45,380 nt of DNA from Microcaldota archaeon (lineage in GTDB: Archaea; Micrarchaeota; Micrarchaeia; Micrarchaeales; Micrarchaeaceae), in the NCBI GenBank assembly GCA_021821445.1, contig JAKACK010000005.1, positions 1 through 45,380 of the forward strand, read 5' to 3'. Both the position numbers and the translations under genes were made by a program. This document shows, one piece after another, positions 1 through 7,594 of this stretch; within the stretch, counting starts at the first letter, position 1; every line of letters begins with the position of its first letter. Under the pieces are notes generated by a model that saw only the letters and a list, made by a program, of their open reading frames with translations, did no database searches and was not told the DNA's origin.

Positions 1-873
1 GATGAAGATATATTAACTATGTCATACGAAGCTTCTAAACAAGCGATAGAAAATTCAAAACTTGAATATTCGGATATAGATTCTATAATGTTTGGATCAG
101 ATAATGTTGAAAATAAAAAAGGTTTATCTTCATCAATGATAGGATTGTTAAATTTAAATCGTAATATAATGGCTTCAGATATCTCATCTTCATTTAAAGC
201 AGCAACTTCTGCTTTAATACTTGAATCAGGATTAGTAGATTCGGGATTATCTAAAAATGGAATTGTTATCGGTGTAGATAATTTGATAAATAAAGGATAT
301 AATCAGCAAAATTATGGAAATTCTGCAGGGAGTGCTGCTTTTATAATTGGTAATGGCAATAATAATTTATTAGATATTTTAGGATCATCAAGTTATAATT
401 CGAATATATATGATGAGTGGAATCATGATGGCAAAACCTTTTCGTCAGGAAGATTTGGAACAAAAAATGGTTATTTAGATTCAGTTGTAAATTCAGGAAA
501 TCAGCTTTTGAAAAAACTAAAATTACAGCCAAAGGATTTCAAGTATGCTATTTTTAGTCAACCGAATTTAGCATTACCTATGTCAGCAGGAAAAACTTTA
601 GGTTTCGATAACGAGCAGCTTAAAGATGGAATTTTATTTGATAAAATAGGTTTTGCTGGATCAGCATCTTCTATGATAGCTTTATGTAATATTATAGAAA
701 AAGCGAAAGTAGGTGATAAAATCTTTTTGTCATCTTATGGAAATTTAGATGGAAGCGATTCAATTGCTTTTGAGGTTAAAAAAGAGATTAAACCAAATAG
801 AAATTTTGAACATTTATTAGGTCAAAAAAATTATATCAGGTATTCAGATTACTTAGATTTATTAAATAATTAA
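1..873 (+). CDS. HMG-CoA synthase family protein, catalytic residues replaced (5' partial)
   Basis: The reading frame is open to the window edge (DEDILTM matches the DEDT(I/A)T region of archaeal HMG-CoA synthases), so about 50-60 N-terminal residues lie outside. The rest aligns end to end with the archaeal family: SDIS.. to the ADLEFACKAGT region, SAGSAAFIIG to the ASAGGAAYIIG region, then FSQPN and SSYGNLDGSDS. The catalytic Cys of FACKAGT is Phe here (codon 193-195) and the catalytic His of FHQPN is Ser (codon 556-558); the Asn of GNTYSG is also gone. It lies directly upstream of thiolase and DUF35 genes, the usual archaeal order for the mevalonate-entry complex. By residues it should not make HMG-CoA; a scaffold role or another thiolase-superfamily function is inference. 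Confidence 0.85.
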   Translation, partial: DEDILTMSYEASKQAIENSKLEYSDIDSIMFGSDNVENKKGLSSSMIGLLNLNRNIMASDISSSFKAATSALILESGLVDSGLSKNGIVIGVDNLINKGYNQQNYGNSAGSAAFIIGNGNNNLLDILGSSSYNSNIYDEWNHDGKTFSSGRFGTKNGYLDSVVNSGNQLLKKLKLQPKDFKYAIFSQPNLALPMSAGKTLGFDNEQLKDGILFDKIGFAGSASSMIALCNIIEKAKVGDKIFLSSYGNLDGSDSIAFEVKKEIKPNRNFEHLLGQKNYIRYSDYLDLLNN

Positions 874-887
874 ATTGTGGTGTTTTT

Positions 888-2051
888 GTGAGAGATGTTG
901 CTATAATAGGAGTAGGGTTAACAAAATTTGGAGAGAGATATGAATCAGATTTGAGAAGTCTTATATCTGAAGCTGGAATAGCTGCAATTGAAGATGCTAA
1001 TATATCCAATAAAGATATTGATATGCTTTATGTTGGAAATATGGCTTCAGGAAGATTGACAGAACAGGAACATATTGGTGCTTTAGCTTCTGATACTCTT
1101 GGTTTATCTAATCCTCCATCATTAAAAGTTGAAAATGCATGCGCGAGTGGTGGTACAGCTTTAAGACAAGCTTATTTGGCTGTAGCGGGCGGTTCAAGTG
1201 ATTTTGCAATGGCATTAGGTGTTGAAAAAATGACAGATGTTTCAACCTCTGAAGCAACAACCGGATTAGGAGGTGCTGGAGATAAGACATGGGAATTGGA
1301 TGAAGGTATTACATTTCCAGGTTTATATGCATTGATGGCTAGAAGGCACATGCATGATTATGGTACAACTGAAGAGCAATTAGCTGCAGTTGCAGTTAAG
1401 AATCACGATAATGCGTATCTAAATAAATATGCACATTTTCATAAACGCATCACAATAGATGAAGTTATGAAGTCTAAAATGATAGCAGATCCATTAAAAC
1501 TTTATGATTGCTCTCCAATATCAGATGGTGCTGCAGCGGCTATACTGGTTCCTTTAGATATAGCAAAAAAGTACAATGACACACCAATTCTTATAGCTGG
1601 AAGTGGTCAAGCCAGTGATACATTGAGACTTGCGGATAGAGATAGTATAACCGGTATAAAAGCAGCTAGAATAGCATCAAAAAAAGCTTATGAACAGGCA
1701 AGAATATCTCCATCAGATGTAAATGTTGCTGAAGTGCACGATTGCTTCACAATAGCTGAAATAATGGCTATGGAGGATTTAGGATTTTATAAAAAAGGAG
1801 AAGCTGCCAAAGCCATAGAGAATGGAGAGACAAAGTTAAATGGAAAAATATCTGTAAATACAAGTGGTGGATTAAAGGGATGCGGACATCCAGTAGGGGC
1901 TACTGGTATAAAGCAAGCAGCAGAGATAGTATGGCAACTTAGAGGTGAAGCTGGAGAAAGACAGGTTACAAGAGCGGACATTGGATTAACTCATAATGTT
2001 GGTGGAAGTGGCAGTACTGCAGTTGTGAATATATATAAAAGAGTTGATTGA
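888..2051 (+). CDS. acetyl-CoA C-acetyltransferase (archaeal thiolase)
   Basis: Condenses two acetyl-CoA to acetoacetyl-CoA, the first step of the mevalonate route. It is a 387-residue thiolase of the archaeal/SCP2 type. The nucleophilic Cys85 sits in VENACASGG, the HDCFTIAE motif is near residue 285, and the GGLKGCGHPVGATG block (about 327-340) carries the active-site His, so this enzyme looks intact, unlike its upstream neighbour. The start is GTG with GGTG at 879-882 as ribosome binding site. It follows the HMG-CoA synthase-like gene by 14 nt and its stop abuts the DUF35 gene, indicating one operon. In methanogens thiolase, DUF35 and HMG-CoA synthase form one complex (known from the family). 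Confidence 0.93.
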   Translation: MRDVAIIGVGLTKFGERYESDLRSLISEAGIAAIEDANISNKDIDMLYVGNMASGRLTEQEHIGALASDTLGLSNPPSLKVENACASGGTALRQAYLAVAGGSSDFAMALGVEKMTDVSTSEATTGLGGAGDKTWELDEGITFPGLYALMARRHMHDYGTTEEQLAAVAVKNHDNAYLNKYAHFHKRITIDEVMKSKMIADPLKLYDCSPISDGAAAAILVPLDIAKKYNDTPILIAGSGQASDTLRLADRDSITGIKAARIASKKAYEQARISPSDVNVAEVHDCFTIAEIMAMEDLGFYKKGEAAKAIENGETKLNGKISVNTSGGLKGCGHPVGATGIKQAAEIVWQLRGEAGERQVTRADIGLTHNVGGSGSTAVVNIYKRVD

Positions 2052-2052
2052 A

Positions 2053-2457
2053 ATGAAAGAACCTATGTATGATTTTAGAAATTATGGTGAAAAAGTAAAT
2101 CTTTTTGGTAATAAATGCAGATCATGTGGTGAAATTTACTATCCAAAACGTAATATATGCCCAAAATGTGGTAAAACAGAATTTGATTCTTTTAAAATAA
2201 GTGGTAAAGGGGAGATATATTCTTACACTAAAATAGAAGTACCTCCAGAAGATTTTGTAGATTCAAAAAGTTATTATGCAGCGATAATAAAATTGGAGGA
2301 TGGCCCCCTTATTAATGGTATATTAGTAGATCCAAAAAATGACTTTGGTATAGACATAGGAGATAAGGTTATACCTTCCATGAGAAAAATAAAGTCAGAT
2401 AAAGATACAGGAACTGTAAATTATCAGATAAAATTTGAGGATATTGGTAAAAAATAA
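2053..2457 (+). CDS. DUF35 OB-fold / zinc-ribbon protein (thiolase partner)
   Basis: Small protein with an N-terminal zinc ribbon (CRSCGEIYYPKRNICPKCGK, four Cys) followed by an OB-fold-like domain with GKGEIYSYTKIEVPPE. This is the DUF35 family that bridges thiolase and HMG-CoA synthase in archaea and is thought to help pass acetoacetyl-CoA between them. I chose the ATG at 2053, immediately after the thiolase stop; a TTG at 2044, overlapping the thiolase end, is in frame and possible. It is the third gene of the operon. The stop is 2 nt from the end of a convergent tRNA-Pro gene. Confidence 0.88.
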   Translation: MKEPMYDFRNYGEKVNLFGNKCRSCGEIYYPKRNICPKCGKTEFDSFKISGKGEIYSYTKIEVPPEDFVDSKSYYAAIIKLEDGPLINGILVDPKNDFGIDIGDKVIPSMRKIKSDKDTGTVNYQIKFEDIGKK

Positions 2458-2458
2458 A

Positions 2459-2531
2459 TGGGGAACAGGAGATTTGAACTCCTATTACTAGCTCCCAAAG
2501 CTAGCAGTCTGCCAGGTTAGCGTAGTTCCCC
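2459..2531 (-). tRNA. tRNA-Pro(UGG)
   Basis: On the minus strand the acceptor GGGGAAC pairs with GTTCCCC plus discriminator A. The anticodon stem CTAGC/GCTAG closes loop TTTGGGA, anticodon TGG. The T-arm is AGGAG-TTCAAAT-CTCCT. No CCA is encoded. The D-arm is poor: of the expected four pairs only one G-C and one U-G can form (CGCT against GACT). The gene is convergent with the DUF35 gene and nearly touches its stop. Confidence 0.85.
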
Positions 2532-2656
2532 AATAATGAGAATTATTATATTCAATAATTAATTAGAAAAATATATAACTATTATTGTTAGAATCGATTA
2601 TATTATATGAATGGAATAATTTAAATTTTAAAATCTAAAATTTTTTGTTTCCAAAA

Positions 2657-6355: not shown

Positions 6356-7594
6356 ATGGATGAAGATAATATATTTAAAAAAATAAATTCAAAAGCATTG
6401 AAATTATATGATTTAGAAAAAGAACTTTCTATTGATTCTAATGATGCAACAAATATAAGGCTTAATTATTTGGGCAATAAATTTGGTTTTGATACCTCTA
6501 AATTTAGTGATAATTGCATAGATTTTAATAAAGCCGTTAATCGTAATATAGAAAATAGCATAGGTTCTGTTAAAATACCTTTAGGGTATGCAGGAGATAT
6601 AAAAGTTAATGGAATTTATGCAAAGTCTTTATATCCTATTTTGATGGCTACTACAGAGGGCAAATTAGTTGCTGGTGTATCAAGAGGTATTAATATTGTA
6701 GATTTAAATGGTGGGGTTAGCACTAAAGTTCTTTCTGATGGAATGACCAGAGATATACTTGTTGATGCATATAATATAGATAATGCTTTTATTGTAAAAA
6801 ATTTCATAGAGAGTAATGAAGGAAATAATTTTTTAGTTAAAGCATTTTCTGAGAATACTTCACATGGAAAAATGAATTCTGTAAAAGTTTTTCAAATTGG
6901 TAAATTATTACACATTAGATTTAATGCATTTACTGGTTCTGCTATGGGAATGAATATGATTACAATTGCATCAAAACACGCTATTGATTCATTAATTGAT
7001 CGTTTTAAATCAGATAGTATTGAATTAAAAATTATAAGTGAATCAGGTAATATGTGCTCAGATAAAAAACCTTCTTACATTAATTTTCTTGAAGGTAGAG
7101 GAGTTTCCATTACAGCTGAAGCTATAATCAGTGAAAAAACATTGAATAAGTTTGGCATTAGTTCTAGAAGCATTGAACGCTTAAATAGATTGAAAAACCT
7201 TGAAGGATCTGCTATGGCAGGTTCTAATGGATTCAATGGACATGTTGCTAATATACTTGCAGCTATGTATATAGCATATGGGCAAGATGTAGCTCAGATA
7301 GTTGAAGGTTCACAAGCAATAGTGGAAGCAGAATCTACAGAAAAAGGACTTTACATATCAATCTTAATGCCTTCAATTGAAGTTGGGACTTATGGAGGCG
7401 GAACTTCACTTGAATCCCAAAAAGAGGCTTTAAAAATGATTGGACTTTATGGAAGTAATGATTACAAAGGTATAACTCGTCTTGCATTTGCAGAAGTGAT
7501 ATGTTCAGTTGCGTTGGCTGGAGAGCTTAACTTATTAATGGTTGAGGCAGCAAATCAACTTTCATCTAGTCATGGAAGTCTTAATAGGAAATAA
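6356..7594 (+). CDS. hmgA: hydroxymethylglutaryl-CoA reductase (class I)
   Basis: Reduces HMG-CoA to mevalonate for archaeal lipid synthesis. Class I motifs in order are ENSIGSVKIPLGYAG, ATTEGKLVAGVSRG (catalytic Glu), RFNAFTGSAMGMNM, ESGNMCSDKKPSYINFLEGRG (catalytic Lys), GQDVAQIVEGSQA (catalytic Asp) and C-terminal SSSHGSLNR (catalytic His). All four catalytic residues are present. The cofactor motif DAMGMN reads SAMGMN here (Ser at codon 6938-6940). I prefer the ATG at 6356 (412 aa); an in-frame TTG at 6299 would add 19 unconserved residues. Neither start has a clear ribosome binding site. It is a single gene between tRNA-Val and membrane-protein genes. Confidence 0.93.
   Translation: MDEDNIFKKINSKALKLYDLEKELSIDSNDATNIRLNYLGNKFGFDTSKFSDNCIDFNKAVNRNIENSIGSVKIPLGYAGDIKVNGIYAKSLYPILMATTEGKLVAGVSRGINIVDLNGGVSTKVLSDGMTRDILVDAYNIDNAFIVKNFIESNEGNNFLVKAFSENTSHGKMNSVKVFQIGKLLHIRFNAFTGSAMGMNMITIASKHAIDSLIDRFKSDSIELKIISESGNMCSDKKPSYINFLEGRGVSITAEAIISEKTLNKFGISSRSIERLNRLKNLEGSAMAGSNGFNGHVANILAAMYIAYGQDVAQIVEGSQAIVEAESTEKGLYISILMPSIEVGTYGGGTSLESQKEALKMIGLYGSNDYKGITRLAFAEVICSVALAGELNLLMVEAANQLSSSHGSLNRK

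Follow-up and report, generated by a model that had tools for sequence, protein, structure and literature searches.

In one genus of Micrarchaeota, the synthase subunit of the archaeal thiolase/HMG-CoA synthase/DUF35 complex has all four of its active-site residues (Glu, Cys, His and Asn) replaced. The reading that we favor, to which we assign a probability of about two in three, is that this protein is a conserved pseudoenzyme kept for the thiolase complex, and that HMG-CoA is made by a separate long synthase. HMG-CoA is the precursor of archaeal membrane lipids.

Replacement of the active-site residues

The synthase-like gene lies at the very start of the window, which is the whole stretch of DNA analyzed here and runs from base 1 to base 45,380 of contig C7 of genome G000, an 840-kb draft in 37 contigs that is about 85% complete by estimate. 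Because the contig starts at base 1 of the window, the synthase-like protein is truncated. Positions 1 to 870 form 290 stop-free codons, which encode the C-terminal part of a homologue of the archaeal-type HMG-CoA synthases. The protein aligned in register to residues 49 to 341 of the M. thermolithotrophicus HMG-CoA synthase (6esq; E = 2e-38). The features discussed are collected in Table 1.

Table 1. Positions of the features discussed, in the window unless another contig is named. Numbering of Cys114 and Glu82 in the M. thermolithotrophicus HMG-CoA synthase (HMGCS) is from PMC6392133.
Feature	Position	Strand	Remark
HMG-CoA synthase homologue without catalytic residues	1..873	+	N-terminus (about 47 aa) missing at contig edge
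Asp34 codon	100..102	+	Aligned with catalytic Glu of GSES (Glu82 of M. thermolithotrophicus HMGCS)
Phe65 codon (ttt)	193..195	+	Aligned with catalytic Cys (Cys114 of M. thermolithotrophicus HMGCS)
Ser186 codon (agt)	556..558	+	Aligned with catalytic His of FHQPN
Phe218 codon	652..654	+	Aligned with conserved Asn of GNTYSG
Archaeal (SCP2-type) acetoacetyl-CoA thiolase homologue	888..2051	+	Active-site motifs intact
DUF35 protein (ChsH2-like zinc ribbon and OB fold)	2053..2457	+	Third subunit of predicted complex
HMG-CoA reductase, consumer of HMG-CoA	6356..7594	+	Glu, Lys, Asp and His motifs kept
Long HMG-CoA synthase-like protein, 600 aa	G000 C14:31833-33635 (L049:7834-9636)	-	Found by TIGR01835 search

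An earlier, sequence-only reading of this DNA had claimed that the catalytic Cys is changed to Phe and the catalytic His to Ser. Both changes were borne out by the 6esq alignment, in which Phe65 and Ser186 fall on the two catalytic residues with their neighbors in register, and two more losses were found, at the Glu (Asp34) and at the Asn (Phe218). An indel or frameshift hiding the Cys or His was ruled out, since the full alignment stays in register and no small indel shifts either residue. The Lys of CKAGT and the Gln and Asn of FHQPN are still present in the pocket. An AlphaFold model of the protein was of low confidence (pLDDT 64) and was used as support only.

The window protein scored below the equivalog cut-offs of both archaeal HMG-CoA synthase models, with 173 bits for TIGR00748 (cut-off, 353) and 224 bits for NF003274 (cut-off, 244). 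The full-length proteins of two congeners scored 180 to 182 bits for TIGR00748, about half of the cut-off, and 224 to 233 bits for NF003274. An intact relative reached 539 and 551 bits for the same models.

These congeners, G001 and G002, are the two same-genus genomes sampled besides G000, and G002 is a single contig of 952 kb. In both, the Cys is replaced by His, the His by Ser, the Glu by Asp and the Asn by Asp. All four residues are therefore replaced in each of the three genus genomes, and the degenerate form belongs to a conserved clade, with Phe/Ser at the Cys and His sites in the window and His/Ser in both congeners. The same four residues are intact in all of the 112 sampled homologues from the phylum outside the genus, in three Thaumarchaeota/Nitrososphaeria homologues and in the M. 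thermolithotrophicus reference. That the loss is an assembly or sequencing artefact is next to impossible. The gene does sit at a contig edge of a draft genome, but a loss of the same kind at the same sites is carried by two independent congener assemblies, one of them a single contig, and sequencing error is excluded for that reason.

The gene order synthase-thiolase-DUF35 is the same in all three genus genomes, and an operon with thiolase and DUF35 genes is typical of the archaeal HMG-CoA synthase. The thiolase keeps its Cys and His, as the sequence-only reading had stated: the motifs NACASGG, HDCF and CGHP are all unchanged. A tRNA-Pro gene (tgg; 2458-2532, minus strand) lies on the opposite strand, directly against the DUF35 gene at its 3' end. 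A scan for defense systems found nothing.

Constraint on the synthase-like protein and its retention with the thiolase

Between G001 and G002, dN/dS as estimated by Nei-Gojobori counting, with synonymous sites strongly diverged, was about 0.10 for the synthase-like gene (346 codons); the thiolase gave 0.026 and the long synthase 0.065. The synthase-like protein is therefore under purifying selection, as is the long synthase, though it is less constrained than the thiolase and the long synthase, and a free pseudogene is ruled out by the value of about 0.10. The rate of evolution of the synthase-like protein is about ten times that of the neighboring thiolase. Maximum-likelihood trees of the two proteins were built from one set of ten genomes; the distance that separates the genus from its intact relatives was about 3.0 changes per site in the tree of the synthase-like protein and about 0.29 in that of the thiolase. 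Identity within the genus is 39 to 81% and 81 to 95%, respectively.

A close thiolase (69 to 100% identical) was found in exactly 17 of the 60 related genomes, and these are the genomes with the archaeal synthase or the synthase-like gene. The thiolase and the archaeal synthase, live or dead, are therefore kept or lost as a pair.

It is improbable, in our judgment, that the subunit is in transitional decay, that is, being lost after a takeover by the long synthase and briefly kept by co-translation or a partial function. Most other genera of the same family (f1) lack the archaeal-type synthase altogether, to which decay in this genus would be a step, and the branch of the synthase-like protein is very long. 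Nonetheless, the reading frames are intact in three species whose proteins are as little as 39% identical, the dN/dS between two of them is that given above, and the close archaeal thiolase never occurs without the synthase or its dead form among the sampled genomes.

A long, probable HMG-CoA synthase and the mevalonate pathway

The rest of the genome was searched for an intact synthase. When the archaeal model and the window protein were used, no second synthase was found. A search with the bacterial-type model TIGR01835 overturned this null result and recovered a second synthase homologue of 600 aa (Table 1), with homologues of 596 aa in G001 and 595 aa in G002. Among 12 aligned long forms, the Glu (ATET), Cys (SAC), His (HLPFPK) and GN-Y motifs are invariant. 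The G000 protein keeps a GNIYTGS motif, and both HMG-CoA synthase Pfam domains (PF01154 and PF08540) are above cut-off, but its score for the TIGR01835 equivalog is 119 bits against a cut-off of 360. The best matches of its AlphaFold model (pLDDT 79, pTM 0.82) are plant, human and bacterial HMG-CoA synthases. Much of the extra length comes from a segment that separates the His motif from the GNxYTGS motif and is predicted to be helical.

The long form is present in 31 of the 60 related genomes. Among the 29 relatives that have a reductase, it occurs in 14 of the 16 without the intact archaeal form and in 2 of the 13 with it (Fisher P = 1.5e-4, or P = 0.0012 without this genus; both values are only indicative, as the genomes are related and the events are not independent). 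Since it is found mostly where the intact archaeal synthase is absent, the long form looks like a substitute for it. The long synthase of about 600 aa is most likely the enzyme that makes HMG-CoA in this genus. The sequence-only reading had called for a separate active synthase or for imported mevalonate or HMG-CoA; the separate synthase with intact residues was found, and import is not needed to explain the genome.

We regard it as very improbable that HMG-CoA is still formed by the synthase-like protein through a changed mechanism, such as one in which both steps use the thiolase Cys. The protein stays in the operon and keeps its fold and some pocket residues, but each of the Glu, Cys, His and Asn has been replaced, and the genome has a second synthase whose residues are intact.

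In 15 relatives (G003, G004, G006, G007, G009, G010, G011, G014, G016, G021, G022, G027, G032, G037 and G057), the long synthase is present and a reductase (PF00368) was undetected. Because of these genomes, mevalonate synthesis may not be the sole role of the long synthase, or its role in every case. "Ca. Micrarchaeum harzensis" has likewise been reported to lack the reductase (PMC8975820).

The reductase in the window had been described as intact, and its catalytic motifs are indeed kept; the DAMGMN motif, however, reads SAMGMN. The full motif is GSAMGMN in the window, GSAMGMN or GAAMGMN in G001, G002, G015, G028 and G049, and GDAMGMN in G045 and G054. Downstream, G000 has mevalonate kinase and diphosphomevalonate decarboxylase above cut-off. 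In the congeners these are replaced by two neighboring diphosphomevalonate decarboxylase-like genes (G001:C2:69846-72376 and G002:C1:491186-493701), so that there are apparently two different lower mevalonate routes inside one genus. A Thermoplasma-type route has been reported for some Micrarchaeota (PMC8975820), and the paired genes of G001 and G002 seem to resemble it. Nine genomes were searched for the modified archaeal mevalonate route via AcnX (PF04412), and none of them had it.

The genus has the reductase and the later genes of the mevalonate pathway, so it still needs acetoacetyl-CoA. A canonical thiolase was looked for in the genus and none was found, which leaves the thiolase of the archaeal complex as the single one detected. 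The archaeal complex is absent from G026 and G025, and there the long synthase adjoins a canonical thiolase.

A probable structural partner and comparison with known systems

The sequence-only reading had proposed either a dead-enzyme scaffold or a repurposed subunit. The loss of the catalytic residues in a conserved clade agrees with the common part of that proposal, and of its two branches we favor the scaffold, because the dead subunit is retained jointly with the only thiolase detectable in the genus and because a precedent exists in PhlA of the bacterial PhlABC acyltransferase. A retained structural partner would be the most economical reading.

In the reading that we favor, synthase activity would have moved to the long enzyme, and the synthase subunit of the archaeal complex would have lost its catalytic residues. 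The thiolase, as the only detectable source of acetoacetyl-CoA in the genus, would feed the long synthase and would still need the old synthase subunit for complex assembly and for shaping the shared CoA site. The old synthase would be kept as a partner of the thiolase-DUF35 complex that has no catalytic part, a case of convergence with PhlA. We infer the assembly role of the dead subunit, catalysis by the long synthase and the flux from the thiolase to it. For the known complex, PMC6392133, which cites the archaeal structure, describes binding of CoA at the subunit interface by residues from each of the three proteins.

A different outcome would be that, as in PhlABC, the whole thiolase/DUF35 complex was repurposed along with the loss of synthase activity, for a different acyl transfer or C-C bond formation, with the synthase-like subunit forming part of a new substrate pocket. 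The window protein is structurally close to PhlABC and MucABC, both of which are acyltransferase complexes, and the very fast evolution of the synthase-like protein would fit such a change. The thiolase also carries 20 genus-specific substitutions, several of them in loops before and after the active-site Cys, and these could reflect a changed reaction. We nevertheless consider repurposing unlikely: the genus must obtain acetoacetyl-CoA and has this one detected thiolase, its catalytic motifs are unchanged, and the synthase-like, thiolase and DUF35 genes lie in no recognizable biosynthetic cluster. Slightly less likely again is the more specific proposal of an archaeal counterpart of PhlABC, in which the synthase-dead complex would have evolved independently from the mevalonate complex into a new acyltransferase or C-C bond-forming enzyme.

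If the synthase-like protein is a retained pseudoenzyme, the genus is a natural experiment in which the catalytic and structural roles of one subunit of a substrate-channelling complex are separated. The protein has lost the chemistry of a synthase but is retained in every case in which the thiolase is, so the question of why archaea tie the thiolase to HMG-CoA synthase becomes directly testable. Annotation is also affected. Homology could misname the synthase-like gene as HMG-CoA synthase. It could also pass over the long synthase, which is divergent, lies far below curated family cut-offs and is therefore probably missed by routine annotation. This risk bears on claims of incomplete mevalonate pathways in Micrarchaeota.

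A literature search, with most subscription journals outside its reach, found no report of the case described here. Among known systems, the window protein matches the M. thermolithotrophicus complex (PDB 6ESQ/6ET9) best, in both sequence and fold. That complex comprises the same three gene families, and its thiolase motifs are kept in the window. Unlike its synthase subunit, the window protein lacks the equivalents of Glu82, Cys114, the His and the Asn. The second gene resembles the MvaS/eukaryotic-type HMG-CoA synthases (PF01154/PF08540, TIGR01835) by its Glu, Cys and His, its GNxYTGS and YGSG motifs, its sequence and its fold; it differs from them in length (500 to 650 aa in the long forms, compared with about 390 to 460 aa) and in its long helical insertion.

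PhlA of Pseudomonas protegens (PDB 5M3K; relative, 9SKH) offers the closest parallel to the loss itself. It has an HMG-CoA synthase fold without the catalytic residues and stands beside a DUF35 subunit and a thiolase-fold subunit that has its Cys. Both the Cys and the Glu are missing from PhlA, catalysis is by PhlC alone, and the enzyme is active only when all three genes are coexpressed (PMC6392133). The window protein likewise has a synthase fold without Cys and Glu, as judged from sequence and the low-confidence model, together with a Cys-bearing thiolase and a DUF35 partner. Its replacements, however, are not those of PhlA, which has Gly for Cys, Cys for Glu and Gln where the His would be. 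The window protein is equally identical to PhlA and to the archaeal synthase (32% to each) and has a better E-value to 6esq, and the thiolase beside it is an ordinary archaeal one. The catalytic loss in the genus was therefore most likely independent of that in PhlA.
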